64,000 nt of DNA, taken from contig NZ_CAOS01000003.1 in NCBI RefSeq assembly GCF_000315365.1, positions 124,001-188,000 on the forward strand, written 5' to 3'. Within the stretch, counting starts at the first letter, position 1; every line of letters begins with the position of its first letter. Under the pieces are notes generated by a model, which saw nothing but the letters and a program-made list of their open reading frames with translations, had not been told where the DNA came from and searched no databases. The DNA comes from Desulforamulus hydrothermalis Lam5 = DSM 18033 (GTDB taxonomy: Bacteria; Bacillota; Desulfotomaculia; Desulfotomaculales; Desulfotomaculaceae). A program made the position numbers and the translations under genes. Below are positions 5,917-57,204 of the stretch, in pieces.

Positions 5917-6224
5917 AATGCCATCACCCAATTACTTGTTATTTTTTAAATAATTTTTTAACAGTATAATGTTTCTACTTAAACTTAGATTATCCTTTAA
6001 ATTTGGCTTAAAAACTAAGATTTAAAAGCAAAAGAGCCGTTTCCTGATCATAACTCTTTATTTCATAGTTATGCCCGGTCCGGCCCCGTATTAGAAATTT
6101 TTCAATTAAAAATTACAAAGTGTTGCTAACCTAAGGGAGGTTTATGATCTCCTTTAGCTCCGGTCTTTACGCCGGCAGCACGATGATTAATTCGCTGCGG
6201 GCCCGCCTGGCCCGCAACTTTAAA
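5917..6224. other. intergenic region, yicC upstream
   Basis: AT-rich from 5932 to 6120, presumably holding the promoter of the yicC operon (minus). A TATACT box on the minus strand near 5966 is possible, but I cannot see a good -35. The rest is repeat copy A (6139-6215). No gene is seen on either strand. Confidence 0.5.
6139..6215 (+). repeat. foldback repeat, copy A (left arm only)
   Basis: Begins GGTTTATGATCTCCTTT and matches copy B at 10541 over about 57 bases with few changes (…AGCTCCGGTC…CAGCAC.ATGATT…CGCT.CGG). It then keeps the first internal hairpin, GCGGGCC-CGCCT-GGCCCGC (6197-6215). The right half of the element is missing. It lies just downstream of the TraR/DksA-type gene, in the opposite orientation to it. 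Confidence 0.7.
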
Positions 6225-6947
6225 TTAAAAATTGTTGCCCCGGTGGTTGTTGTTTTCTTTTTCCAGCGGGGTGCGTTCATCTGCAAATTCACGAAAGGAC
6301 TGGTAAAAAACCCCGTCGTCAACTTCATACGGAACACTGTCAGGATCTGTAAAACTCTCTGTGTGTTCTTCGTTGATCAATTCTTCGTCCCCGTAATAGG
6401 ACCCGGCCTGGCTGCGGTCAGCATGCTCATTCCAGCGGGCCACGGTTTCCCAGGCATCCTCGCCGTCAAAACCGTTGTAGTCTTCGTTGTCTCGCCAGGC
6501 ACGGCTGAAGGGGTCCGCCAATACATCTTCTTCCGCTGTCCGCTCCCGAGGCCGGGGCAGGCTTTCATCCTTAGATTTGCACCGGCTGCACTGGGTAGTA
6601 TAAGGAACAGCTTCCAGTCTGGCCGGGGGGATCTCCCGGCCGCATACCTCGCATATGCCGTATCTGCCCGTTTCCAGCTTAGCCAAGGCATCCTCAACAG
6701 CCAGCAAAATAAACTTGGCATCACCCTTTAAAGCCAGGTCTTTGCTGCGCTCAAACATCTCGCTGCCCAGGTCGGCCGGATGGTTATCATAAGAAGAAAG
6801 TTCTTCCAGTGATTCATCCGTAGAAAGTCCCAGACCGCCGCCCCTTTCCTGGTTATTGTAGTTGTTAATACGGTTTTGCATATGTTGTCGCATCTTTTGC
6901 AGGCGCTGTTTAAATACTGCCAGTTGCTGTTCTGTTAACAAAACCAT
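6225..6947 (-). CDS. TraR/DksA-type C4 zinc-finger protein (YteA-like)
   Basis: 240-aa protein with an N-terminal coiled-coil-like segment (LAVFKQRLQKMRQHMQNRI), the motif NHPADLGSEMFERSKDLAL (about 55-73), and a C4 zinc finger CEVCGREIPPARL...CSRCK (about 99-125). This is the layout of the YteA/YocK group of DksA-related proteins in spore-formers. DksA proteins bind the RNA polymerase secondary channel; whether this one does is unknown. The C-terminal half is acidic and low in complexity. It is monocistronic, bounded upstream by a strong terminator (6971-7011). Confidence 0.82.
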   Translation of the reverse strand: MVLLTEQQLAVFKQRLQKMRQHMQNRINNYNNQERGGGLGLSTDESLEELSSYDNHPADLGSEMFERSKDLALKGDAKFILLAVEDALAKLETGRYGICEVCGREIPPARLEAVPYTTQCSRCKSKDESLPRPRERTAEEDVLADPFSRAWRDNEDYNGFDGEDAWETVARWNEHADRSQAGSYYGDEELINEEHTESFTDPDSVPYEVDDGVFYQSFREFADERTPLEKENNNHRGNNF

Positions 6948-7028: not shown

Positions 7029-8222
7029 TTATTGCAACTGGCGCAGCAGTTTTTCGATGCGATCCATACCCTCTTTAATATTTTCCATTGATGTAGCGTA
7101 AGACAATCTGATAAAGTCATCCCCGCCAAAAGCAATGCCGGGTACCACCGCCACTTCAGCCACTTCCAGCAACAGGTCCGCCAGGTCAGTGGCACTGTTC
7201 ACCGTTTTGCCCTGATAAGACTTGCCGAAGTAAGCACTGACATTGGGGTACAGGTAAAAAGCACCGCCGGGTTTCGGGCAGCTGACGCCGGGCAGGGCCT
7301 TTACCCGCTCCAGCATATAATCGCGGCGTTTGGCAAACTCAACCACCATGGCTGCCACCTCAGCCTGGGAACCATTGAGGGCCTCCACGCTGGCTGCTTG
7401 GGCAATGGAAGTGGGGTTGGAGGTGGCGTGCGACTGCAGGTCGGCCATGGCTTTCGCGACCGGAGCAGGAGCGGCTGCATAGCCGATACGCCAGCCGGTC
7501 ATGGCGTAGGCCTTGGAAACCCCGTTAATGACTACGGTATTTTCTTTTAACTGCGGACTGAGGGAGGCAATGCTGACGTGTTCTAAACCGTCGTACAGCA
7601 GTTTTTCATAAATTTCATCAGAAATAACGGTAATGTTGTGTTCCAGTAAAACCTCGCCCAGAGCAGCCAGTTCGTCGCGGCTGTAGACGGCGCCGGTGGG
7701 GTTGCTGGGGCTGTTGAGCAGAAAAACTCTGGTTTTGTCCGTAATGGCTGCCTTTAGCTCCCGGGGAGTCAGTTTAAAGCCGTTGGCTTCCCTGGTTTGT
7801 ACAATGACAGCCTGGGCACCGGCCAGTTTAATTTGTTCCAGGTAGCTGACCCAGTAGGGTGCCGGCAAAATAACCTCGTCACCGGGCTGGCAGAGCACCT
7901 GAAAAGCATTGTACAGTGAATGTTTGGCCCCCACCGAAACCACAATTTGATTGGTCTGGTACTCCAGACCGTTTTCCCTGCGGAATTTATCAACAATGGC
8001 TTGTTTCAGTTTTAGTGTGCCGCCGGCCGGTGTATAGCGGGTTTCCCCCGCTTGAATGGCTGCCACGGCTGCTTCTTTAATGTGGTCAGGTGTATCAAAG
8101 TCCGGTTCCCCCACCCCAAAGCTGATCACTTTGATGCCGGCGGCTTTCATTTGCTTGGCTTTGGCATCAATGGACAAAGTGGGTGACGGGCTGATACCCA
8201 AAGCTCGTTCCGCTAATCGCAT
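7029..8222 (-). CDS. class I pyridoxal-phosphate aminotransferase (aspartate aminotransferase type)
   Basis: Fold-type I aminotransferase close to the bacterial Ib aspartate aminotransferases, which make aspartate/oxaloacetate with 2-oxoglutarate. The N-terminus RLAERALGISPSPTLSIDAKAK is typical. Further motifs are YTPAGG (about 68), NSPSNPTGAVY (about 172), the PLP lysine in NGVSKAYAMTGWRIGYAA (about 231-248) and the C-terminal Arg in FIRLSYATS. The length is 397 aa, starting at the ATG at 8222 with SD GGGAGAG. It is 32 bases downstream of dapL, so it may supply glutamate/aspartate chemistry for the same pathway. Exact substrate not proven. Confidence 0.9.
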   Translation of the reverse strand: MRLAERALGISPSPTLSIDAKAKQMKAAGIKVISFGVGEPDFDTPDHIKEAAVAAIQAGETRYTPAGGTLKLKQAIVDKFRRENGLEYQTNQIVVSVGAKHSLYNAFQVLCQPGDEVILPAPYWVSYLEQIKLAGAQAVIVQTREANGFKLTPRELKAAITDKTRVFLLNSPSNPTGAVYSRDELAALGEVLLEHNITVISDEIYEKLLYDGLEHVSIASLSPQLKENTVVINGVSKAYAMTGWRIGYAAAPAPVAKAMADLQSHATSNPTSIAQAASVEALNGSQAEVAAMVVEFAKRRDYMLERVKALPGVSCPKPGGAFYLYPNVSAYFGKSYQGKTVNSATDLADLLLEVAEVAVVPGIAFGGDDFIRLSYATSMENIKEGMDRIEKLLRQLQ

Positions 8223-8254: not shown

Positions 8255-9433
8255 TTAAAACTCCACCTTGCCGATATACTTTTTCATCCGTTCAAGGGCT
8301 TCTGCAATCCGCTCCTTAGGAACGGTAACGGAAATACGGAAGTACCCCTCTCCCTGTTGGCCGTAACCGTTGCCGGGGGTTATTACCACGCCGGCCTTCT
8401 CAATGACAAATTCCGCAAAGGAAGCCGAGGTAAAGCCCTTAGGTACCGGCGCCCAGATATAGAAGGTGGCCTTTGGTTTGGCCAACTGCCAGCCCATGGC
8501 ATTCAGACCGTCCACCACCAGGTCCCGCCGTTCCCGGTATATTTCATTGTTGGCCGCCACACTGTCCTGCGGGCCGGTAAGGCCGGCAATGGCAGCATAC
8601 TGCACAGCCTGGAACTGTCCGGAATCAATATTGGTTTTAAAGCGTCCCAGCGCTTCAATAACATCCGGGTTGCCGGCCGCCCAGCCAATGCGCCAGCCGG
8701 TCATGTTGTAAGCCTTGGAAACGGAGTTAAACTCAATACCCACCTCTTTGGCACCGGGAATTTGCAGGAAAGAAAGAGGTTTATAGCCGTCAAAGGCAAC
8801 TTCTGAATAAGCATTATCATGGCAAACTAAAATTTCGTACTGTTTGGCAAAGTCAACAACTTCCCGATAAAATTTTTCATCTGCCACAGCTCCGGTGGGG
8901 TTGTTGGGATAGTTGATAAACATCATCTTGGCCCGTTTGGCCACATCCCGGGGAATAGCTGCCAAATCAGGCAGAAAACCTTTCTCGGCGGTTAACGGCA
9001 TGTAGTACGGTTCGGCACCGGCCAAAATGGCACCCCCGCTGTAAACCGGATAGCCCGGGTCGGGAACCAGCACGGTGTCGCCGGGATTAAGATAGCACCA
9101 TGAAATGTGAGCAATGCCTTCCTTGGAGCCAATTAAAGAAACCACTTCGGTTCCGGCGTCCAGTTCTACGCCAAAACGCCGGGCATAAAAGTCTGCCACC
9201 GCCTGTCGATAAGCCAGCATGCCTGCTGAAGAAGGGTACTGGTGGTTGGCCGGCACGGCCACTTGCTGCCGGGCTTCTTTGATAATGTGTTCCGGTGTAG
9301 GAATATCCGGGTCACCGATACCCAGGCTGATTACATCTACGCCTGCTTCTTTTTTCTGAGCAATTACTTTTTCAATGCGGGCAAATAAATAAGGGGGCAA
9401 ATTCTTTATTCTTTGAGCTTCTTCAAAGCGCAA
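8255..9433 (-). CDS. dapL: LL-diaminopimelate aminotransferase
   Basis: Converts tetrahydrodipicolinate directly to LL-diaminopimelate with glutamate, bypassing the acyl-blocked DAP routes used for lysine and cell-wall synthesis. Family features are [17 protein letters not shown] near the N-terminus, [24 protein letters not shown], and the PLP lysine in [20 protein letters not shown] start it at TTG 9433 ([10 protein letters not shown]), 6 bases after AAAGGAGGAG. The longer reading from 9526 has no SD and an N-terminus unlike the family. The product is 392 aa. Lying directly after dapF, it makes a dapF-dapL pathway pair. Confidence 0.93.
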
Positions 9434-10484: not shown

Positions 10485-10515
10485 CAAAAAACTGATCCCA
10501 TTGTAATGGATCAGT
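10485..10515 (-). terminator. intrinsic terminator downstream of the Ca2+ ATPase
   Basis: Arms ACTGATCC (10491-10498) and GGATCAGT (10508-10515), followed on the minus strand by T6 (10485-10491). It is 240 bases past the ATPase stop, after repeat copy B, and separates the ATPase from dapF. The hairpin is clear; which transcript it ends is inferred from orientation. Confidence 0.75.
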
Positions 10516-10540
10516 CAGAGTGTCGACAAACATTAGCGGC

Positions 10541-10743
10541 GGTTTATGATCCCCTTTGGCTCCGGTCTACGCACCGACAGCACTATGATTCGCTACGGTC
10601 GCCCTTGGGGTCGCCTCAAACGGGCCATCCTGGCCCGGTTCGGCTGGCGCCCACGTCCTGTGGGCGCCACCCCAATGGCTCCTTTCGCTCATCAAGTGCT
10701 GTTGCCGGTGCTTGAATACGGTCTGCAACGGATGTAAAGAACC
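10541..10743 (+). repeat. foldback repeat, copy B (most complete copy)
   Basis: About 203 bp. The left end GGTTTATGATCCCCT is mirrored, with changes, by GGATGTAAAGAACC at the right end. The two halves pair over much of their length: CACCGACAGCACTATGAT near 10572 matches the complement of ATCAAGTGCTGTTGCCGGTG near 10692, and CCTTGGGGTCGC matches GGCGCCACCCCAATGG inverted. Between the arms stand two perfect hairpins, CGGGCC-ATCCT-GGCCCG and TGGCGCCCAC-GTCCT-GTGGGCGCCA. A 64-codon reading frame inside it is almost certainly not a gene. Confidence 0.75.
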
Positions 10744-17115: not shown

Positions 17116-17185
17116 GACAGACCCTCCCTGAAGCAACTGCAAAATTCTGTCCTTGTTTGTTCAACCTGCCTTGGCCGGCCTGATT

Positions 17186-17250
17186 GGGCGCCCCACCCCT
17201 GCTCATCTTGGCACAATAAGTTGTGATAACGGTGCTTCGGCAATTTGCTG
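17186..17250 (+). repeat. foldback repeat, copy D (degenerate right arm)
   Basis: GGGCGCCCCACCCC, then GCTCATCTT, then ATAACGGTGCTTCGGCAATTTGCTG. This parallels copy C (GGGCGCCACCCC ... ATAACCGGTGGTTCGACAAGTCGCTG) with scattered changes. The TIR is not recognisable, so this copy is called by similarity to C only. Confidence 0.45.
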
Positions 17251-17320
17251 CCCCCAAAATAACACTATCTGAGTTGTTAATAGCTTGCGCTTATGCAAGA
17301 AGTTTTATTTCTCTGTCTTT

Positions 17321-47144: not shown

Positions 47145-47636
47145 ATGATGGAAAACAGAGAGATAAAATTTTTAAAGTTACAGCAAATAATTGATGCCCA
47201 TGAAGGCAAGGTTTCTCACTTAATTGCCATTCTGCAAGAAACTCAGGCAGAATACGGTTATCTGCCAAAAGAAGCACTGACGTACATAGCCACGGCTATG
47301 GGAATTTCCCCTGCCACTGTTCTGGGGGTGGCAACTTTTTATGCCCAGTTTTCTCTCATACCTAAAGGCAAATACGTTATCCGGGTTTGCGACGGTACCG
47401 CCTGTCATGTGCGCGGCTCCGAACCCATCATGATGGCACTGCGTAAAGAGTTGTCCCTTACGCCTGACAACCCCACTACCAGCGACCTGATGTTTACCGT
47501 GGAAACCGTTTCCTGTTTGGGTGCCTGCGGATTGGCCCCGGTTGTGGTTGCTGATGAAGAAGTTCACGGGCAAATGACACCGGATGGCATAGTGGAGATT
47601 GTCAGAAAATTAGCTAAGTCTAACAGTGAAAACTAA
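47145..47636 (+). CDS. hydC: NADH-linked [FeFe] hydrogenase subunit, NuoE-like (operon 1)
   Basis: 163-aa thioredoxin-fold [2Fe-2S] subunit, like NuoE of complex I and HydC of the trimeric bifurcating hydrogenase. The cluster cysteines are CDGTACHVRG (C-x4-C, about 85-90) and CLGACGLAP (C-x3-C, about 126-130). ATG codons at 47145 and 47148 both follow GGGGG. It is the first gene of the operon, 12 bases before hydB. Confidence 0.92.
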   Translation: MMENREIKFLKLQQIIDAHEGKVSHLIAILQETQAEYGYLPKEALTYIATAMGISPATVLGVATFYAQFSLIPKGKYVIRVCDGTACHVRGSEPIMMALRKELSLTPDNPTTSDLMFTVETVSCLGACGLAPVVVADEEVHGQMTPDGIVEIVRKLAKSNSEN

Positions 47637-47648
47637 GGGGGGCCATCA

Positions 47649-49529
47649 ATGCTTAAATCACGTGAAGATTTATATAAGCTGCAACAAAAAGCGAAGGCTG
47701 CACTGGCCGAACAAACCATGCGCATTTTGGTCTGTGCCGGTACCGGCTGTGTGGCCAACGGTTCGTTAAAAGTATATGAGCGCTTAAAAAACTTGGTGGC
47801 TGAACATGGCTTACTGGCAGAAGTTGACCTGGTTAAGGATGTCAGTCATGAAGGTATCGGCGTCAACATCAGCGGCTGTCATGGTTTCTGCCAGTTGGGT
47901 CCGCTGGTGCGTTTTGAACCCTCCGGTTTGCTTTACTGCAAGGTTCAGCCGGAGGATTGTGCCGAAATCGTTGAAACTACTATTATCAACAACAGCGTGG
48001 TTGAACGTTTGCTTTATCAGGATCCCAACAGCGGGGAAAAAGTTAAAACACAGGATGAAATTCCTTTTTATAAACGTCAGGTAAGAGTTACATTAAAAGA
48101 GTGCGGACGTATTAACCCGGACGATATTAATGACTACATTGCCCATGACGGGTACCAGGCTATTGCCAAAATACTTGAGGGCATGAAACCCGAAGATGTC
48201 ATAAAAGAAGTGACTGATTCCGGACTGCGCGGTCGCGGCGGCGGCGGCTTTCCTACCGGTCGCAAATGGTCCTTTGCCGCCTCGCAACCGGGCCCTAAAA
48301 AATACGTTATCTGCAACGGTGATGAAGGCGACCCGGGTGCATTCATGGATCGTTCCGTAATGGAAGGCAACCCGCACTCAGTACTGGAAGGTATGATGAT
48401 TGCCGGTTTCGCCATTGGGGCAGACGAAGGTTATATTTATGCCCGGGCAGAATACCCGCTGGCCATTAAGCGCATGCGCAAGGCCATCGCTGATGCGGAA
48501 GCCCTGGGATTGCTGGGCAACCGGGTTTTAGGCTCTGATTTTAGTTTTAAAATTCACATTAAAGAAGGTGCCGGTGCTTTTGTTTGCGGTGAGGAAACAG
48601 CGTTAATTGCTTCTATTGAAGGCGAACGCGGCATGCCTCGGCCCCGCCCCCCCTTCCCGGCTGTCAAAGGTTTATGGGGTTGCCCCACTATTATTAATAA
48701 CGTTGAAACACTGGCTAACCTGCCCGCCATTATTAATAACGGCGCCAACTGGTTCAGAAGTTTCGGTACACCAAACAGCGCCGGCACAAAAACCTTTGCC
48801 CTGGCCGGTCAAATTCAGAACACAGGTTTAGTGGAAGTCCCCATGGGTATGACCCTGCGGGAAATTGTGTTTGATATCGGCGGCGGTTTACGGGAAGGCA
48901 AAAAATATAAATCTGTACAAATCGGCGGACCCTCCGGCGGTTGCTTAACTGAAGATAAACTGGATCTTCCTTTGGATTATGATGAGCTCATGAAGGTAGG
49001 CGCTATGATTGGCTCCGGCGGTCTGGTTGTCATGGGCGAGGATACCTGTATGGTTGAAACTGCCAAATTCTTTATGGGTTTTGTCCAAAACGAATCCTGC
49101 GGTAAATGTGTTCCCTGCCGTGAGGGTACCAAACAAATGTTAGCTTTGTTGACCAAGATTACCGAGGGTAAGGGTACCGAGGAGGATCTGGCGCTGCTGG
49201 AAGAATTAGCGCAAAATGTTAAAGACGGTTCCCTCTGCGGCCTGGGCAAAACCGCCCCGAACCCGGTTCTTACCACTCTCCGTTACTTCCGCCATGAGTA
49301 TGTTGCCCATGTACGGGATAAGAAGTGTCCGGCCGGCGCTTGCCAGGCTTTAAAAGAATACTATATTGATCCTGCTAAATGCAAAGGCTGCACAGTATGT
49401 GCCAGGGTTTGTCCGGCCGGTGCCATTACCGGAGATAAGAAGCAGCCCCATGTCATTAATGTGGATCTTTGCCTGAAGTGCGGTGCCTGCATGGAAAAAT
49501 GCAAATTTGGTTCCATTATTATCAGATAA
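47649..49529 (+). CDS. hydB: NADH-linked [FeFe] hydrogenase flavoprotein subunit HydB (operon 1)
   Basis: 626-aa NuoF-type subunit that binds FMN and NAD(H). An N-terminal thioredoxin-like [2Fe-2S] domain (CAGTGC... GCHGFC, about 26-85) is followed by the NuoF core with GLRGRGGGGFPTGRKW (about 190) and CNGDEGDPGAFMDR. The [4Fe-4S] cysteines ESCGKCVPCREG lie near 482. The C-terminus is a 2x[4Fe-4S] ferredoxin (CKGCTVCARVCPAGAI ... CLKCGACMEKCKFG, about 577-622). This is the same plan as Thermotoga HydB. It lacks nothing expected. Confidence 0.95.
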   Translation: MLKSREDLYKLQQKAKAALAEQTMRILVCAGTGCVANGSLKVYERLKNLVAEHGLLAEVDLVKDVSHEGIGVNISGCHGFCQLGPLVRFEPSGLLYCKVQPEDCAEIVETTIINNSVVERLLYQDPNSGEKVKTQDEIPFYKRQVRVTLKECGRINPDDINDYIAHDGYQAIAKILEGMKPEDVIKEVTDSGLRGRGGGGFPTGRKWSFAASQPGPKKYVICNGDEGDPGAFMDRSVMEGNPHSVLEGMMIAGFAIGADEGYIYARAEYPLAIKRMRKAIADAEALGLLGNRVLGSDFSFKIHIKEGAGAFVCGEETALIASIEGERGMPRPRPPFPAVKGLWGCPTIINNVETLANLPAIINNGANWFRSFGTPNSAGTKTFALAGQIQNTGLVEVPMGMTLREIVFDIGGGLREGKKYKSVQIGGPSGGCLTEDKLDLPLDYDELMKVGAMIGSGGLVVMGEDTCMVETAKFFMGFVQNESCGKCVPCREGTKQMLALLTKITEGKGTEEDLALLEELAQNVKDGSLCGLGKTAPNPVLTTLRYFRHEYVAHVRDKKCPAGACQALKEYYIDPAKCKGCTVCARVCPAGAITGDKKQPHVINVDLCLKCGACMEKCKFGSIIIR

Positions 49530-49566
49530 CTATTGGAATATTTAGTTAGTGAAAGGGTGTGACGTG

Positions 49567-51543
49567 ATGAGTGGTAAAATAACCATTAACGGACAAGTAA
49601 TAGACTTTACCGATGAGAAGAACATTTTATCCGTAGCACGCAAGGCCGGTATCGAAATACCTACCCTGTGCTATCATCCGGAATTAACCATTGCCGGCGC
49701 CTGCCGCCTGTGCGTAGTGGAAATTGAGCGCATGGGTATTCAGGCTTCCTGTTCTACCGCTCCGGTGGACGGAATGGTCGTCTACACTAATTCCGAGCGT
49801 GTTAACAGAGTGCGCAAAATGGTTTTGGAACTGCTGTTGGCCAATCACGACCGCGAGTGCACCACCTGCGAATCCAGCGGTGCCTGCAAGCTGCAAAAGT
49901 ATGCCAGTGATTACGGCATTAAGCGCCTGCGCTATCCCGGCCGCACTGCACCGGCACCGCTGGACACCTCCAGCCTGTCGGTGGTTCGGGATCCCAACAA
50001 ATGTATTTTGTGCGGCCTTTGCGTCAGGGTGTGCAAAGAAATCCAGGGCATCGGTGTTTGGGACTTTAAAAACCGCGGTTCCCGCACTGAAATAGTGGCT
50101 GCCATGGACCAACCCTTGGCTGAGTCCGCTTGCATTAACTGCGGCCAGTGTATAGCTGTTTGTCCCTGTGGCGCTTTAACTTCAAATTCTACTGCCATTG
50201 ACGAAGTATGGGCAGCAATCCGGAACCCCAAGAAAACCGTCATTTGCCAGATTGCCCCGGCGCCCCGGGCTGCCCTGGGCGAGGAGTTTGGCCTTGGCTC
50301 TGTTGATGTAACCAAAAAAATTGTAGCAGCTTTACGCAAAATCGGTTTTGACAAAGTTTTTGACACCGTCTTTACCGCTGATATGACCACCATTGAAGAA
50401 GCCAACGAATTTCTCAGCCGGCTGGTGAAAGGTGAAAAGTTGCCGCTTTTTACCTCATGCTGCCCCGGCTGGGTCAAATATGCCGAACAATTCCATCCGG
50501 AACTGTTAAATAATTTATCTTCCTGCCGCTCGCCGCAGCAAATGTTTGGCTCGCTATTAAAGAAAAAATATGCCAAAGAACTAGGCATTGCACCACAAGA
50601 CATGTTTGTGGTATCCATCATGCCCTGTACCGCTAAGAAATACGAAGCCAAACGGCCGGAATTTATGACTGAAGGCGCTTATGACGTGGACGCTGTTTTA
50701 ACAACCGTCGAAGCAGCCCGCATGTTCAGAGAAGCCGGCATCATTTTCAGTTCCCTGGCGGATTCGGAGTTTGACCAACCCATGCAACAGGCTACCGGCT
50801 CCGGTGTTTTGTTTGGTACAACCGGCGGCGTGATGGAATCTGTAGTAAGATATGTTGCAGGCAAAATGCTGAATGCCGAAGGGCGGGTTGACGTTGAATT
50901 TACCAGAGGCATGGAAAACACTAAGATAGCCGGCATCAATGTCGGTGAACACAAATTAACGCTGGCCGTAGTTAACGGTTTAGCTGCCGCAGAAGAATTG
51001 ATCAAGAAAATTCAGAGCGGACAAATTGAGGTACATGCCGTTGAAGTTATGGCTTGTCCGGGAGGCTGCGTCGGCGGCGGCGGACAGCCCTTCGTTAACG
51101 ATCAGGAACACCGCCTGGCTCGCGCCAAGGAAATTTATAATATTGATGCCCAGCTGGAATTGCATAAGGCTCAGGACAATGAAGACCTGGAAAATATTTT
51201 CCAAAAATATTGGGGTGGTTGCTGCAACCATGAAACCCATCATGATTTGCACACCCATTACCAGCCTAAAAAACGTATAGTCGGCAACGAAATCCTCATT
51301 AAAGACGGGACAGGCCCGGAGATTACCGTTTGCCTGGGCGAAGGTTGCTTAAAGAAAGGCTCTCTGGCTGTAGTGGAAAAACTGCTGCCCTTTCCGGTTA
51401 AATTGAAAGGCGTTTTCTGCCTTGAACACTGCGGCAACGGCGTATCCGTTAAAATAAACGGCCAAATACAAAACGTCGAACCGGATAATGTACTGGCTTT
51501 CATCAAAGCCAACTGCGGCTGCAACTGCAGTAGCTGTTCATAA
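49567..51543 (+). CDS. hydA: [FeFe] hydrogenase catalytic subunit HydA (operon 1)
   Basis: 658-aa enzyme reducing protons or oxidising H2. In order: an N-terminal [2Fe-2S] domain (CYHPE ... CRLC), a His-Cys cluster (NHDRECTTCESSGACK), 2x[4Fe-4S] (CILCGLCVRVCKE ... CINCGQCIAVCPCG), and the H-cluster domain with TSCCPGW (about 296), MPCTAKK (about 352) and EVMACPGGCVGGGG (about 494). After a His/Cys-rich linker comes an extra [2Fe-2S]-like domain (CLGEGC about 588, CLEHC about 617), ending in a cysteine-rich tail CGCNCSSCS. The start is ATG 49567 with AAAGGGTG. No maturase (hydE/F/G) lies in the window. Confidence 0.96.
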   Translation: MSGKITINGQVIDFTDEKNILSVARKAGIEIPTLCYHPELTIAGACRLCVVEIERMGIQASCSTAPVDGMVVYTNSERVNRVRKMVLELLLANHDRECTTCESSGACKLQKYASDYGIKRLRYPGRTAPAPLDTSSLSVVRDPNKCILCGLCVRVCKEIQGIGVWDFKNRGSRTEIVAAMDQPLAESACINCGQCIAVCPCGALTSNSTAIDEVWAAIRNPKKTVICQIAPAPRAALGEEFGLGSVDVTKKIVAALRKIGFDKVFDTVFTADMTTIEEANEFLSRLVKGEKLPLFTSCCPGWVKYAEQFHPELLNNLSSCRSPQQMFGSLLKKKYAKELGIAPQDMFVVSIMPCTAKKYEAKRPEFMTEGAYDVDAVLTTVEAARMFREAGIIFSSLADSEFDQPMQQATGSGVLFGTTGGVMESVVRYVAGKMLNAEGRVDVEFTRGMENTKIAGINVGEHKLTLAVVNGLAAAEELIKKIQSGQIEVHAVEVMACPGGCVGGGGQPFVNDQEHRLARAKEIYNIDAQLELHKAQDNEDLENIFQKYWGGCCNHETHHDLHTHYQPKKRIVGNEILIKDGTGPEITVCLGEGCLKKGSLAVVEKLLPFPVKLKGVFCLEHCGNGVSVKINGQIQNVEPDNVLAFIKANCGCNCSSCS

Positions 51544-51557
51544 GTTTTGATACTCTG

Positions 51558-51587
51558 GGTGCTGACAGTAGTTAGCACCTTTTTTTT
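51558..51587 (+). terminator. intrinsic terminator of hydrogenase operon 1
   Basis: GGTGCTGAC-AGTA-GTTAGCACC (9 pairs with one G-U) followed by T7, 14 bases past the hydA stop. The next gene starts only 28 bases later. Confidence 0.9.
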
Positions 51588-51615
51588 ATGTTAAAATATG
51601 TTTGGTGATGTCATT

Positions 51616-52074
51616 ATGTCGAAAAAACATCTTTGTTTAATAATCGGACCGGCTAAGTACCCTGAAGACGACGCCAGAATGGTGGCCCTGTTTTTAGCGG
51701 AGCCAGGCGAAAAATTCATCTGTGGGGCCAGTACCGCCAACATGGTGGCCCGCTACTTGCCTGCAGGTCAAAAGCTGTCCGATGTGCCCGGACTGGCTAT
51801 GGTAACGGACGGCACCTTAATATTAAGCGAGGTGCTGGACATCCTGGCCAGCAATTCCCGGCCGAATCTTCCCGAAAAACAGTATGATGCGCACCGGCTG
51901 GCGGTGGCTTTGCTGGAAGCTGATTCAGTATCTTTTCTTATTGGCATGGCCGTTAATAAATCGCAGCGTAGTCTGAGCTTGCCGGCCAAACCAATTGTGA
52001 AAAGCCGGTTTGTCAGAGAACTGGCGGATATGTTAAAACAAAAGGGCAAACAGGTAATGGCGGAGTATTTCTAA
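51616..52074 (+). CDS. small protein resembling the C-terminal region of hydrogenase-locus SpoIIE-type phosphatases
   Basis: 152-aa soluble protein. EKFICGASTANMVARYLPAGQKLSDVPGLAMVTDGTLILSEVLDIL (about 37-82) recalls the C-terminal region of SpoIIE/PP2C-like proteins found beside NAD-linked hydrogenases in Clostridia, with the pattern CGG(T/S)TA..VAR...G..L.TEG..TL. No phosphatase domain is present. The start is ATG 51616 with GGTGATG; ATG 51598 has no SD. It lies between two terminators and two hydrogenase operons, so a regulatory link is inferred only. Confidence 0.5.
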   Translation: MSKKHLCLIIGPAKYPEDDARMVALFLAEPGEKFICGASTANMVARYLPAGQKLSDVPGLAMVTDGTLILSEVLDILASNSRPNLPEKQYDAHRLAVALLEADSVSFLIGMAVNKSQRSLSLPAKPIVKSRFVRELADMLKQKGKQVMAEYF

Positions 52075-52228
52075 TCTCACCGGGGCCTCCCGGCCGGTAC
52101 GGCAGGCGCCCAAATGGAAAACCTGTGGAAATGCCAATGCTTTTCATTAAATGCTGTTACGCTGATTTGGCAAGCTGCCGTCGGAGATTCACAAAATAAC
52201 TTTATTTTTACGGCTTTATTCAGCGCGG

Positions 52229-52264
52229 GGTGGTGGAATTTTCAATTTCCACCACCTTTTATTG
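52229..52264 (+). terminator. intrinsic terminator
   Basis: Perfect 10-bp arms GGTGGTGGAA (52229-52238) and TTCCACCACC (52247-52256), followed by TTTTATTG. It is 155 bases past the small gene at 51616-52074 and directly before repeat copy C. The gap 52075-52228 shows nothing else recognisable. Confidence 0.85.
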
Positions 52265-52265
52265 T

Positions 52266-52361
52266 TGCCCGCATCCTGTGGGCGCCACCCCAGCGGCTCC
52301 TTCTTTCATCAAGTGCAATAACCGGTGGTTCGACAAGTCGCTGGCAGGGGATCATCAAACC
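52266..52361 (+). repeat. foldback repeat, copy C (right arm with intact end)
   Basis: GCATCCTGTGGGCGCCACCCC and CATCAAGTGC match copy B closely. It ends AGGGGATCATCAAACC, the inverted form of the left end GGTTTATGATCCCCT of copies A and B, so the full element has inverted ends of about 16 bp. Confidence 0.7.
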
Positions 52362-52634
52362 ACTTGAATTTCCTTTATCTACAGTCTGATTTATAATAAT
52401 ATATAATTTTTTCGCCGTAATATTTCATGTCGAAAAAACCCTTTAAAATACCCTTAAAACTACTTGACGCTCGCGAACGTTCTAGGTTAGAATTATTGTA
52501 GTTAATTGTAAGAATATTTATAATGTTTAAATTAGTTTAATTTATCTATTTTATTTTTCAATTATGTCATTTTTCAGACATTTTTCAACAATGAAAACCG
52601 TTAAAATACTATACAGGGAATGGAGGTGTGACGG
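52362..52634. other. AT-rich intergenic region
   Basis: About 270 AT-rich bases holding one clear promoter (52464-52493) for the small gene at 52635. No other feature was recognised. Confidence 0.6.
52464..52493 (+). promoter_or_regulatory. probable sigma-A promoter of the 67-aa gene
   Basis: TTGACG (52464-52469), 18-base spacer, TAGAAT (52488-52493). The spacer holds the palindrome GAACGTTC. The start would be near 52500, about 135 bases before the small gene. Confidence 0.6.
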
Positions 52635-52838
52635 TTGGGTACGCAACAACTGGTCAACGGGCAAATGATTATCACAAGTATTGCCAAATACTCCATCACC
52701 AAGGAAGAAAGCCTAAATTTACCAAAATTTGAGCCATGCATCGACGCTTATGATCAACTTATCTATTTGGTTGCCGACACTCCCCCGGAGATAAATCCTG
52801 CCTATGATTGTTACGGTCAACTGGTTAATTTTTATTAA
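52635..52838 (+). CDS. hypothetical 67-aa protein
   Basis: Not recognised. It has a TTG start 8 bases after GGAGGTG, a good SD, so translation is likely. The product is acidic and soluble, without membrane segment or signal peptide. Its second half shows a loose internal repeat: CIDAYDQLIYLV ... AYDCYGQLVNFY, i.e. Cys, Asp, Tyr and Gln-Leu recurring. It stands alone, 350 bases ahead of hydrogenase operon 2 and behind its own promoter. Function unknown. Confidence 0.6.
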   Translation: MGTQQLVNGQMIITSIAKYSITKEESLNLPKFEPCIDAYDQLIYLVADTPPEINPAYDCYGQLVNFY

Positions 52839-53190
52839 CTGATTAATTTACCATAACTGTTAACCGACAAAATCACATGGTCTTAACGCCAGGGTTTAAT
52901 CATAATATATTCAATGTGAAAATTTTATTTTTCCCCTTAACCTCTTTTATTTAGTATTTCAATCAGTTATAGTAAAGTCATGACAGTTATTTTTTGGAAG
53001 GTGGTGGTATCAGCATTATTTTTTGATTCTTCATAATTATCAAATGGTTAAGGGTTTTGGTGGGCTAGCAAGACAACTATAAAGCTGCCTTTCTTTTTAC
53101 AACCAAGCAGTACAAGCCCTTTATCTGCCAAGACACAGTGTACAAACAGGCAGCAAAAAAAGTGCTTCCGACGAAAGGAGGAACCATTGC
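52839..53190 (+). promoter_or_regulatory. leader region of hydrogenase operon 2
   Basis: About 350 bases without a gene. GCTGCCT near 53086 can pair with AGGCAGC near 53147, while CTGCC near 53129 can pair with the same GGCAG, so two folds compete just before the SD AAAGGAGG. A TATAGT near 52971 could be a -10, but no good -35 is seen. Confidence 0.35.
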
Positions 53191-53670
53191 ATGGGTGCAG
53201 AGTGCAAATGCCAATGTGAACAGGATAATAAGCTGGATGCCCTGTTTGCGCAATATAAGGGCAATCCCAACGGCCTTATTGTCGTAATGGCCGCCATCCA
53301 GGAATCCCAAGGTTACCTGCCCAAAGATCTTTTGGTTAGAACAGCCGAGGAATTGGGCGTTCCCCTCAGTGATGTCTACGGTGTAGCTACCTTTTATGCA
53401 GCTTTCAGCCTCCGCCCCAGGGGCAGACATACCGTCAACCTTTGCCTGGGAACCGCTTGCTATGTGAAAGGTGCTCCCGAAGTACAAGCCATGCTGGAAA
53501 AAGAAATGGGCATTAAGGCCGGCAACACCACCGAAGACCGCCGCTTCAGCCTGGATCTGGTAAGATGCTTGGGAGCTTGCGGCATTGCGCCGGTAATGAC
53601 CGTTAACGGAGAAGTTTACCCGCGAATGACAGCGGAAAAAGTAGCTGAAATTCTGGCCAAATATGAATAA
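53191..53670 (+). CDS. hydC: NADH-linked [FeFe] hydrogenase subunit, NuoE-like (operon 2)
   Basis: 159-aa paralogue of the operon 1 NuoE-like subunit. It has CLGTACYVKG (C-x4-C, about 90) and CLGACGIAP (about 130), and GVATFYAAFSLRPRGRHTVN shared with the paralogue. The N-terminus carries an extra pair of cysteines, MGAECKCQCEQDNK, absent in copy 1. The SD AAAGGAGG is strong. The frame reaches 53670, 22 bases before hydB2. Confidence 0.92.
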   Translation: MGAECKCQCEQDNKLDALFAQYKGNPNGLIVVMAAIQESQGYLPKDLLVRTAEELGVPLSDVYGVATFYAAFSLRPRGRHTVNLCLGTACYVKGAPEVQAMLEKEMGIKAGNTTEDRRFSLDLVRCLGACGIAPVMTVNGEVYPRMTAEKVAEILAKYE

Positions 53671-53692
53671 TACCTCCAGGGAGGTGAAATAT

Positions 53693-55402
53693 ATGAATTT
53701 TACTGAACTCGAATTATTAAGAGCAACTGCTAAGGAAGCTGTTAAATTACGTCTGGGTCAAGAACCCTCTGACAATTATAAATATCATGTGCTGGTATGC
53801 GGCGGTACCGGATGTATATCAATCGGTTGCCAAAATACCCTGGAAGCTCTCCGGAAAGCGATAGACAGTCACGGCTTACAAGATACTGTCAAATTGGTTG
53901 TAACCGGTTGCATGGGTACCTGCGAAATGGGACCGGTTATCACGGTTTTCCCGGAAGGATATTATTACTGCCGCGTGCAACCCGAAGATGCTGAAGAAAT
54001 CGTTACTTCCCACCTCAAACAAGGTAAATATGTGGAGCGGCTTTGCTACCACGCTCCTGACGGAACCGTACAACCCCGCAAATCAGACATGACATTCTTT
54101 AAAAAGCAAAAACGCAATGCCTTGCGCAACTGCGGCCTGATTAACCAAACTTCCCTTGAAGAATACATTGCCATGGACGGCTATGTTGCTTTGGCAAAGG
54201 TTCTGCAGCAAATGACACCCCAGCAGGTCGTAGATGAAATTAAAAAATCCGGCCTGCGCGGTCGCGGCGGCGCCGGCTTCCCCACCGGCGTTAAGTGGCA
54301 ATTCGTATTAGATCAAAAGTCAGACCAGAAATACATCGTGTGCAACGGCGACGAGGGCGACCCGGGTGCCTTTATGGATCGCTCTGTACTGGAAGATGAC
54401 CCCTATTCTGTTATTGAAGCAATGACCATTGGTGGATTTGCGGTGGGCGCCAATAAGGGTTATGCCTACATTCGTTTGGAATACCCCAGGGCTATTGATC
54501 ACTTCACCAAAGCCCTTAACCGGGCCAGAGAAGTGGGCCTGTTAGGCAACAATATCTTGGGCAGTGATTTCAGTTTTGATATTGAAATCCGGGTTGGTGC
54601 CGGCGCCTTTGTTTGCGGCGAAGAAACCGCCCTGCTGGCCTCCATTGAAGGTCGTCGCGGTGAGCCCCGGCCACGTCCGCCCTTCCCCGCCGTTTCCGGC
54701 TTATTTGGCAAACCCACCGTTATTAATAACGTGGAAACCTGGGCTAACATTTGCCCAATAATTATTAACGGTGGCGACTGGTATGCCTCTATGGGTACCG
54801 AAAAGAGCAAAGGTACCAAAGTCTTCACGCTGGCCGGCAAAATTACCAATACCGGCTTGGTGGAAGTGCCTATGGGCATTACCCTGCGGGAAATGGTAGA
54901 AGATATTGGCGGCGGTGTACCGGGCGGTAAAGCCTTTAAGGCTGCCCAAACCGGTGGTCCCTCCGGCGGTTGCATCCCGGCCGCTTATCTTGACACACCG
55001 ATTGATTATGAAAACCTGGCTGCCCTTGGTTCCATTGTTGGTTCCGGCGGTATGATTATCGTTGACGAAGGAACCTGTATGGTTGACCTGGCAAAATTCT
55101 ACCTGGGCTTTACCCAGGACGAATCCTGCGGTAAATGCACCCCCTGCCGCATTGGCACCAAGCGTATGCTGGAAATTCTTGAACGAATCACAAAGGGGTT
55201 AGGCAAGGAAGGCGATTTGGAACTGTTAATTGAACTGGCCAACTCCATTAAGGCTTCTGCCCTTTGCGGCCTGGGTCAAACTGCTCCGAACCCCATCCTC
55301 AGCACCCTGCGTTATTTCCGCGATGAATATGAAGCACACATTAAGGATAAAGTCTGCCCGGCCGGCGTTTGTAAAATGCCCCGCAAAGGCCTAAAATCCT
55401 AG
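53693..55402 (+). CDS. hydB: NADH-linked [FeFe] hydrogenase flavoprotein subunit HydB (operon 2), lacking the C-terminal ferredoxin domain
   Basis: 569-aa paralogue of HydB1. The N-terminal [2Fe-2S] domain (CGGTGC... GCMGTC), NuoF core (GLRGRGGAGFPTGVKW, CNGDEGDPGAFMDR) and [4Fe-4S] site (ESCGKCTPCRIG) are intact. After DKVCPAGVC the protein ends with KMPRKGLKS, whereas HydB1 continues into 2x[4Fe-4S]. The end is clean, and hydA2 follows 20 bases later with its own SD. I start at ATG 53693 with GGGAGGTG; upstream codons overlap the NuoE gene. Confidence 0.95.
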   Translation: MNFTELELLRATAKEAVKLRLGQEPSDNYKYHVLVCGGTGCISIGCQNTLEALRKAIDSHGLQDTVKLVVTGCMGTCEMGPVITVFPEGYYYCRVQPEDAEEIVTSHLKQGKYVERLCYHAPDGTVQPRKSDMTFFKKQKRNALRNCGLINQTSLEEYIAMDGYVALAKVLQQMTPQQVVDEIKKSGLRGRGGAGFPTGVKWQFVLDQKSDQKYIVCNGDEGDPGAFMDRSVLEDDPYSVIEAMTIGGFAVGANKGYAYIRLEYPRAIDHFTKALNRAREVGLLGNNILGSDFSFDIEIRVGAGAFVCGEETALLASIEGRRGEPRPRPPFPAVSGLFGKPTVINNVETWANICPIIINGGDWYASMGTEKSKGTKVFTLAGKITNTGLVEVPMGITLREMVEDIGGGVPGGKAFKAAQTGGPSGGCIPAAYLDTPIDYENLAALGSIVGSGGMIIVDEGTCMVDLAKFYLGFTQDESCGKCTPCRIGTKRMLEILERITKGLGKEGDLELLIELANSIKASALCGLGQTAPNPILSTLRYFRDEYEAHIKDKVCPAGVCKMPRKGLKS

Positions 55403-55422
55403 AGGATAGGAGGGGAAAAGGC

Positions 55423-57204
55423 ATGGCAACCGTAACACTGACGATTGATAATATAAAAGTTGAAGTTGAACAGGGTTCAACCATCTTAGAAGCTGCCAAA
55501 AAAATTGGTATTAATATTCCTACCCTTTGCTATATGAAGGAAATTAATGCCATTGGCGCCTGTCGTATTTGCGTGGTTGAAGTCCAGGGTGCCCGGGCCC
55601 TGCAGGCTGCCTGTGTAACTCCCGTGGCCGAAGGAATGGTTGTCAAAACCAATTCTGCGGCCGTACGGGCTTCACGCAAAATGACCCTGGAACTGATTCA
55701 ATCCAACCACCCGCAGGAATGCAATACCTGCCTGCGCAACAACAACTGTGAACTGCAAGCTTTGTCAGAGGCCATGGGTCTTAAAGAAATACGTTTCGTA
55801 AGACCGGCCCAAAGCCACAGCAAGGACGATATTGACAGTTCGTCACCCTCAATTGTCCGGGATCCCCGTAAATGCATTCTGTGCCGCCGTTGTGTAGCTG
55901 TTTGCGAAAAGGTACAGGGCGTTAAGTGCATCAGTGCGGTAAACCGCGGTTTTGAAACCATTGTTGCTCCTCCTTTTAATCAGGGCCTTATGGATGTTAA
56001 CTGCACCATGTGCGGCCAGTGCTCCCTGGTCTGCCCCACCGGCGCCATTACCGAAGTGGACGATACCGGTAAAGTATGGCAAGCCTTGGATGATCCCACC
56101 AAACACGTGGTGGTGCAAACCGCACCGGCCGTGCGTGTAGCCATTGCTGAGGAATTTGGCATGGAGCCCGGCACCGTCAGCACCGGCAAACTGGTAGCAG
56201 CCTTGCGTCGCTTGGGCTTTGACAGCGTAATGGATACTGACTTCACAGCCGACCTTACCATTATTGAAGAAGGCAACGAGTTTATTAAGCGTGTTACCGA
56301 AGGCGGCGTGCTGCCAATGATTACCTCCTGCAGCCCCGGCTGGATTAAATATATTGAAATGTACTATCCTGACCTGCTGGCTCACCTGTCCACCTGTAAA
56401 TCACCCCAGCAAATGTTTGGCGCCCTGGTTAAGACCTTCTATGCTGAAAAGAAAGGTATTGACCCCGCCAGTATTGTCAGCGTATCAATCATGCCTTGCA
56501 CCGCTAAAAAATTTGAAGCCCAGCGAGATGAACTGAAAGACAGCGGTTATCAGGATGTTGACGTTGTACTGACTACCCGTGAACTGGGTCGCATGCTGCG
56601 GGAAATTGGCATTGATTGGGAAAATCTGCCGGATGAGGATTATGATGCTCCCATGGGTCTTTCCACCGGTGCTGCGGTTATCTTTGGTGCTACCGGCGGT
56701 GTTATGGAAGCTGCCGTACGTACCGTATACGAAGTAATTACCAAAGAACCGATGCCGGACATCAACTTAACTCCGGTTCGCGGTATGGAAGGTATTAAAG
56801 AAGCCACTCTAAAAGTTGGCGACCTGGACGTTAAAGTGGCGGTTGCTCACACTTTGGGCAATGCCCGCAAGCTGCTGGATAAAATACGGGCCGGTGAAGC
56901 AGATTATCACTTTATTGAAATCATGTGCTGCCCCGGTGGCTGCATCGGCGGCGGCGGCCAGCCCATCCCCACCAACCTGGAAGTACGCCTCAAGCGTATC
57001 GGTGGTATCTATAAGGCTGACGAAGACCTGCCTATCCGCAAATCTCACGAAAACCCGGCCATTAAAGCAATTTACGAAGAATTCCTGGGTCAACCTCTGG
57101 GCGAAAAATCCCATAAGCTGTTGCACACCCACTATGTACCGCGGGGTGTCTACAGAAAGCCCGAGGGTCTGCCTGAAAGGGTACCAAGCGGTGATCATCA
57201 TTAA
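55423..57204 (+). CDS. hydA: [FeFe] hydrogenase catalytic subunit HydA (operon 2)
   Basis: 593 aa. It has an N-terminal [2Fe-2S] domain (CYMKEINAIGACRIC), His-Cys cluster (NHPQECNTCLRNNNCELQ), 2x[4Fe-4S] (CILCRRCVAVCEK ... CTMCGQCSLVCPTG), and H-cluster motifs TSCSPGW (about 300), MPCTAKK (about 356) and EIMCCPGGCIGGGG (about 500). Compared with HydA1, the second Cys of TSCCPGW is Ser, and there is no C-terminal [2Fe-2S]-like domain: it ends soon after LLHTHYVPRGVY. The SD AGGAGGGG precedes the ATG. Confidence 0.95.
   Translation: MATVTLTIDNIKVEVEQGSTILEAAKKIGINIPTLCYMKEINAIGACRICVVEVQGARALQAACVTPVAEGMVVKTNSAAVRASRKMTLELIQSNHPQECNTCLRNNNCELQALSEAMGLKEIRFVRPAQSHSKDDIDSSSPSIVRDPRKCILCRRCVAVCEKVQGVKCISAVNRGFETIVAPPFNQGLMDVNCTMCGQCSLVCPTGAITEVDDTGKVWQALDDPTKHVVVQTAPAVRVAIAEEFGMEPGTVSTGKLVAALRRLGFDSVMDTDFTADLTIIEEGNEFIKRVTEGGVLPMITSCSPGWIKYIEMYYPDLLAHLSTCKSPQQMFGALVKTFYAEKKGIDPASIVSVSIMPCTAKKFEAQRDELKDSGYQDVDVVLTTRELGRMLREIGIDWENLPDEDYDAPMGLSTGAAVIFGATGGVMEAAVRTVYEVITKEPMPDINLTPVRGMEGIKEATLKVGDLDVKVAVAHTLGNARKLLDKIRAGEADYHFIEIMCCPGGCIGGGGQPIPTNLEVRLKRIGGIYKADEDLPIRKSHENPAIKAIYEEFLGQPLGEKSHKLLHTHYVPRGVYRKPEGLPERVPSGDHH

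Follow-up and report, generated by a model that had tools for sequence, protein, structure and literature searches.

The foldback repeats found in a 64-kb stretch of DNA from Desulforamulus hydrothermalis Lam5 (the whole stretch is referred to below as the window) are very probably copies of a MITE that is mobilised in trans by a DDE transposase of the IS1182 family and that inserts at the feet of terminator hairpins, with duplication of the whole hairpin. This interpretation builds on sequence comparisons, which show the ends and the copy number of the element, the duplication of complete hairpins, empty sites in related genomes, and a partner IS with matching ends and the same targeting. The preliminary description had offered two possibilities, a MITE moved by another transposase or a structured RNA family, and both were borne out: inverted ends, target duplications, empty sites and an IS1182-family IS with matching ends were found, and the core of the element is a recognised, strongly covarying RNA, TwoAYGGAY. 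It had not been recognised where the element really ends, that terminator hairpins are duplicated on its two sides, or that the RNA belongs to TwoAYGGAY.

Copies of the element in the window

Four copies (A to D) had been described in the window, and each of them is matched by a profile derived from 39 full genomic copies. They are all on the plus strand, as had been stated, and copy A does stop half way, its profile match covering the left half only. The starts previously given for copy A (6139) and copy B (10541) were placed too far inside the element, since the true ends lie further out, near 6116 and at 10516, respectively. The features are as follows.

6100 to 6114, no strand: left target repeat of copy A, TTTCAATTAAAAATT, the 3' part of an AATTTTT..AAAAATT stem-loop
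6116 to 6218, plus strand: copy A, left half of the MITE, with its left terminus decayed and without the right half (profile match 6117-6206, E = 4e-13)
6219 to 6233, no strand: right target repeat of copy A, TTTAAATTAAAAATT
10491 to 10515, no strand: stem-loop ACTGATCCCATTGTAATGGATCAGT, the target hairpin, abutting the left end of copy B (read from the sequence)
10516 to 10719, plus strand: copy B, MITE with an intact left end, the right end replaced after about 10713 (profile E = 2e-74)
10564 to 10718, minus strand: TwoAYGGAY RNA motif (RF01731) within copy B (Rfam cmscan 57.5 bits, gathering score 43)
52079 to 52212, plus strand: copy C, a degenerate remnant of the centre and right part of the MITE (profile E = 2e-12)
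52229 to 52256, no strand: stem-loop GGTGGTGGAATTTTCAATTTCCACCACC with a T-rich tail, separating copies C and D (read from the sequence)
52266 to 52388, plus strand: copy D, right-hand portion of the MITE, in which the right terminus TCTACAGTCTG is intact (profile E = 4e-27)

The target repeats of copy A (6100-6114 and 6219-6233) are identical at 14 of 15 bases and reach a score of 12.5; mismatched flanks, taken as the null, scored no higher than 11.5. Copy A is an old, half-deleted MITE that has retained both target repeats. Copy B is 100% identical to another genomic copy across 173 bp, and the layout at its left end, a hairpin followed by the element, is that of other genomic copies. Copy D represents the right half and ends exactly at CAGTCTG. 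A weak match to the MITE profile at 17185-17251 of the window (E = 3e-4) is possibly a fifth, very old copy.

Genome-wide census and structure of the element

The preliminary description had named a lack of further copies in the genome as a result that would speak against a repeat family. At least 105 sites in the 2.69-Mb genome match TTATGATCCCCTTTGGCTCCGGTC with three mismatches or fewer, while the reversed control gave none, and 40 genomic matches to copy B were obtained at E ≤ 2e-76. Being derived from pattern and profile searches, this census is a lower bound. The orientation of the 105 sites is mixed (53 forward, 52 reverse).

Alignment of the copies together with their flanks gave a full unit of 254-270 bp bounded by CAGAGTGTCGACAAACATTATCGGTGG and CAGACTGTAGACAAAGGTTGTAAAACAAAGTGAGGTGG; the unit is thus about 265 bp long rather than about 200 bp as first estimated. 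The true termini of the MITE are CAGAGTGTCGACAAAC and CAGACTGTAGACAAAG, whereas the inverted ends originally proposed, GGTTTATGATCCCC, are the inner arms of the long foldback. Full copies deviate from the consensus at 5-31 alignment columns. Internally deleted forms of 42, 51, 60 and 111-146 bp share the termini of the full-length element, and the ends therefore appear to be sufficient for movement. With a size of 42-270 bp, terminal inverted repeats and no transposase gene inside, the element has the structure of a MITE.

Two individual loci showed unusual arrangements. In L045 (G000:C10), two short copies at 331-444 and 1049-1162 have the same ends and flanks and lie 718 bp apart, which is probably a local tandem duplication that took in the element. 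At position 1755 of L119 (G000:C3:558654), an insertion has been nearly erased: two copies of one hairpin enclose a remnant of only about 24 bp from the left end (CAGAGTGTCGACAAACATTATTAG).

Duplicated terminator hairpins and empty sites

In a set of 54 distinct elements, the left and right flanks of each element carry one stem-loop that is specific for the locus. Alignment of the left with the right 38 bp gave a median score of 18.0, compared with 5.0 for flanks of mismatched elements (99% quantile 9.0, maximum 11.5), and 51 of the 54 elements score above the 99% quantile of the mismatched pairs. Target duplications next to the copies, which had been suggested as a check, are thus present in these 51 elements. 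Stem-loops with a score of at least 6 adjoin both ends in 46/54 elements (null 29% per side), and the spans of the left and right stem-loops are correlated (0.74, 54 elements). The length of the duplication is not fixed but tracks the hairpin and is mostly 15-29 bp. Pairing can survive where the two hairpin copies differ, as at L011, where GGTCTCC...GGAGACC stands opposite GGCCTCC...GGAGGCC. A few elements (L035, L049 and L100) have AT-rich surroundings and a repeat of only 7-8 bp, which counts against whole-hairpin duplication at these loci. Among 41 cases, for which ORFs were called by length only, the neighbouring genes were tandem in 29, convergent in 10 and divergent in 2, as is expected if insertion occurs behind genes.

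Empty sites were found in sister species, including Desulforamulus putei DSM 12395 (G001), a member of the same genus that gave a match in the pattern scan of named genomes. Downstream of ftsY (L022), the genome of D. hydrothermalis has the order hairpin-element-hairpin, and in D. putei and G006 the element is absent and there is only one hairpin, which has a T tract. At a second locus (L012), a region that spans 400 bp including the element in D. hydrothermalis corresponds in D. putei to some 50 bp, in which there is one hairpin whose sequence differs. Target duplications together with the empty sites in D. putei and G006 are likewise characteristic of a MITE.

Two terminators are often close together at convergent genes. 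The element could accordingly have inserted between two similar tandem terminators that were already present, without any target duplication, and the different hairpins on the two sides of most elements in genome G007 would fit such a scenario. We consider it extremely unlikely, however, since in 51 of 54 cases the hairpins agree within a locus but not with those of other loci, only one hairpin occupies the empty site in relatives, and full-length matching hairpins flank all eight complete copies of the partner IS described below. Moreover, several left hairpins in G007 equal the right hairpin of another element, as if halves had been swapped.

In G007, matching hairpins on the two sides were found in only 2 of 27 sampled TwoAYGGAY elements, which counts against a MITE that duplicates its target unless recombination or misassembly is invoked. 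Across loci L197-L203, L230-L232 and L237-L253 of this genome, a number of left hairpins are found again on the right side of a different element; the left hairpin of L203, for example, corresponds to the right one of L240, and the left hairpin of L245 to the right one of L239. Either the flanks were swapped by recombination between copies, or the draft assembly, which is 72% complete, was misjoined where the repeats lie; the duplicated hairpins serve as barcodes that expose such swaps or misjoins.

IS1182-family elements as candidate movers

A search of relatives with the end pattern gave mostly isolated matches, one of which (L090) led to the IS. The autonomous IS of G008 is 1607 bp long (L118:1035-2641), has the ends CAGACTGAAGACAAAC and CAGAGTGTCGACAAAG, and encodes a 539-aa transposase of the IS1182 family (NF033551, 447 bits with a cut-off of 270; PF13751 and PF05598 over cut-off). 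Autonomous IS1182-family elements of sister species measure 1.5-1.6 kb, and their ends are the same as those of the MITE or closely related. Related IS are present in D. putei (75% identity) and in G004 (53%; ends CAGACTGTCAAA), and the IS of G008 and D. putei carry MITE-type ends.

All complete IS copies that were checked at both ends (five in G008, three in G004) are flanked by duplicated whole stem-loops of 21-34 bp, with local scores of 21-34 versus at most 8 for mismatched flanks. The partner IS thus shows, in 8/8 complete copies, the palindrome targeting that is reported for some IS1182 members. For D. putei, the flanking stem-loops at two pairs of contig ends gave scores of 27 and 24. 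The same type of element occurs in G016, which belongs to another family of the same order, with hairpin duplications at 6 of 8 loci. Among more distant IS1182 relatives (26-59% identity), several of whose loci are partial, no long flanking repeats were found, a result that carries little weight given the partial loci.

In the genome to which the window belongs, no relative of the IS transposase was detected at E ≤ 1e-20. The MITE is therefore an orphan there, or else the partner is hidden in a gap of the assembly. The proposed search for a transposase with matching ends thus succeeded in sister species and not in the genome itself, and since none with these ends was found in the latter, we infer the action in trans from the sister species, whose IS1182-family transposase would move the MITE. 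Transposases of the genome itself, namely L053 (IS1634-type), L031 and L054 (both distant IS1182-like) and L055 (DDE), were discarded as candidates, as they have no MITE ends within three mismatches; the inverted repeats of L054 differ from the MITE ends.

Duplication of a whole palindromic target resembles the duplication of CRISPR repeats. This likeness, together with the lack of a close IS1182 relative in the genome of the window, would be compatible with a different enzyme, such as a Cas1-like or casposon-type integrase that duplicates palindromes, the IS1182 ends being alike by chance. We regard this as very unlikely, because IS1182 transposases are encoded by elements with these ends in G008 and D. 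putei and by close relatives of these elements in G004, with the same whole-hairpin duplication, and chance agreement of both ends and target behaviour is implausible. A Cas1-type mover had been considered on account of the palindrome duplication and was dropped once the IS1182 partner was found.

In the mechanism that we propose for the IS1182-family enzyme, the transposase would act on ends of the form CAGASTGTHGACAAA and would insert the element at the feet of intrinsic-terminator hairpins, joining the 3' ends of the element to the 5' foot of the hairpin on each strand. Gap repair would then copy the complete hairpin and leave one hairpin on either side of the element, although this order of cutting and repair is conjectural. 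The shape of the hairpin, perhaps extruded as a cruciform, may be recognised rather than its sequence, and both flanking hairpins presumably still terminate transcription.

The TwoAYGGAY RNA core

The opposite strand of the MITE core matches the Rfam family TwoAYGGAY (RF01731) above the gathering score of 43, with cmscan scores of 57.5 bits for copy B and 60.5 bits for L004. In an alignment of 18 sequences from nine genomes, 93% of cells are paired in the TwoAYGGAY fold and 30 of 34 pairs show compensatory changes, so that the compensating base changes that had been suggested as a check are present. The covariation score, for a structure predicted from the very alignment that was used, is 0.63. 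Shuffles gave 0.21 (sd 0.02), none of 500 reaching the observed value, and slid controls did not exceed 0.10. Since the fold comes from the same alignment, and since DNA-level homogenisation may also act on palindromic arms, covariation by itself is not proof of a role as RNA.

TwoAYGGAY is multicopy in several relatives: scoring, limited to 38 candidates per genome, gave at least 38 copies in this genome, 36 in G046, 34 in G007, 28 in G019 and 10 in G016. In the wider phylum, 51 of 398 sampled genomes contain the motif, 34 of them over the cut-off, and many have several copies. The core is surrounded by IS1182-type ends in this genome, G001, G007 and G016, and by other, mutually different pairing arms in G002, G005, G008, G009, G019, G038, G046 and genomes of the wider phylum, as though a single TwoAYGGAY core had been joined to a variety of inverted repeats. 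Occurring on several kinds of ends in different lineages, the core behaves as mobile cargo. It is dispensable for movement, since 42-60-bp versions without it were also inserted. Outer arms that are unrelated in sequence yet self-pairing were seen at loci L059, L068 and L074 of G009, at L278-L286, and at loci of G005, G008, G019, G038 and G046.

The repeats might instead be primarily structured regulatory RNAs, for example putative CsrA-binding RNAs, as proposed for TwoAYGGAY (PMC4333381), which are kept for their function and are only secondarily mobile. The Rfam match and the strong covariation are in line with this possibility, and the RNA strand shows a weak tendency to agree with tandem neighbouring genes (20 agreements, 9 disagreements). 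We nevertheless judge a primarily regulatory nature to be rather unlikely: internally deleted copies that lack the core insert likewise, close relatives range from no copies to dozens, and the copies, unlike 5' leaders, follow terminator hairpins and seldom separate divergent genes (2/41). The covariation, in addition, may reflect homogenised palindrome arms.

Going beyond the MITE with its TwoAYGGAY cargo, we tentatively suggest, with some doubt, that a subgroup of IS1182 transposases identifies extruded terminator hairpins purely from their shape and joins at both 5' feet, thereby rebuilding the terminator on each side, and that TwoAYGGAY is at the same time a selected structured cargo, either an RNA or a single-stranded DNA module, passed among unrelated transposon ends across the phylum.

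Relation to known elements

The element resembles IS1272, which has 16-bp end repeats, and TnSha1 (PMC5678879, PMC4923244) in the transposase family and in the use of stem-loop targets without a common primary sequence, some of them proven terminators. However, IS1272 and TnSha1 delete or replace the stem-loop without target duplication, whereas here the whole stem-loop is duplicated, and neither the MITE nor its partner IS behaves in the IS1272 manner. Hairpin duplication was drawn as a hypothetical pathway b by Wan et al. (2017; PMC5678879), who reported removal of the hairpin for IS1272 itself. For TnSha1, Furi et al. (2016; PMC4923244) reported deletion and noted terminators among the targets. 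ISPse1, another IS1182 member, is listed with a 4-bp repeat (PMC3281130).

Like RUP, SPRITE and QMITE (reviewed in PMC10969869), the element is short, high-copy, intergenic, strongly structured, internally variable and without a transposase gene. Unlike these, it has very long, hairpin-defined target duplications, a partner of the IS1182 type, which that review of bacterial MITEs does not mention, and a core that is an Rfam RNA family. IS elements in REP palindromes (PMC1525189) similarly prefer extragenic palindromes for insertion; the REPs treated there are repeated sequences, whereas here each target hairpin is different and is duplicated whole. The core matches TwoAYGGAY (PMC2864571) in sequence and fold above the gathering score. 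In contrast to the family as listed, it is the multicopy core of a mobile element whose ends vary by lineage. TwoAYGGAY is cis-regulatory according to Rfam and probably not cis-regulatory according to the discovery paper (PMC2864571).

In the open literature we found no account of whole-terminator duplication at such a scale, nor of TwoAYGGAY as mobile cargo, although some of it may already be on record. IS1182-related elements located in hairpins belong to a known kind; the whole-hairpin duplication at scale and the TwoAYGGAY cargo are apparently new. The dozens of natural insertions provide a data set for whole stem-loop duplication, so far only a hypothetical pathway, and a candidate transposase is now at hand for testing it. 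Landing behind genes and leaving a terminator-type hairpin on both sides suggests a low-cost route to more than 100 copies. The results also suggest that the orphan Rfam family TwoAYGGAY, annotated as cis-regulatory, be re-filed as mobile-element cargo, which bears on the proposal of a CsrA-binding RNA.

Other repeats in the window

Apart from the MITE copies, the window contains neighbouring paralogous stretches at 7472-7717 and 8674-8916, which are 81% identical, lie 1.2 kb apart and are probably one gene in two copies. Two sets of diverged direct repeats with a spacing of about 6.0 kb and 71-78% identity occupy 47547-57000 and represent tandem paralogous gene clusters. One of these repeats encodes a CPGGC(V/I)GGGGQP stretch, which, as read from the sequence, we take to be typical of iron-only hydrogenases.
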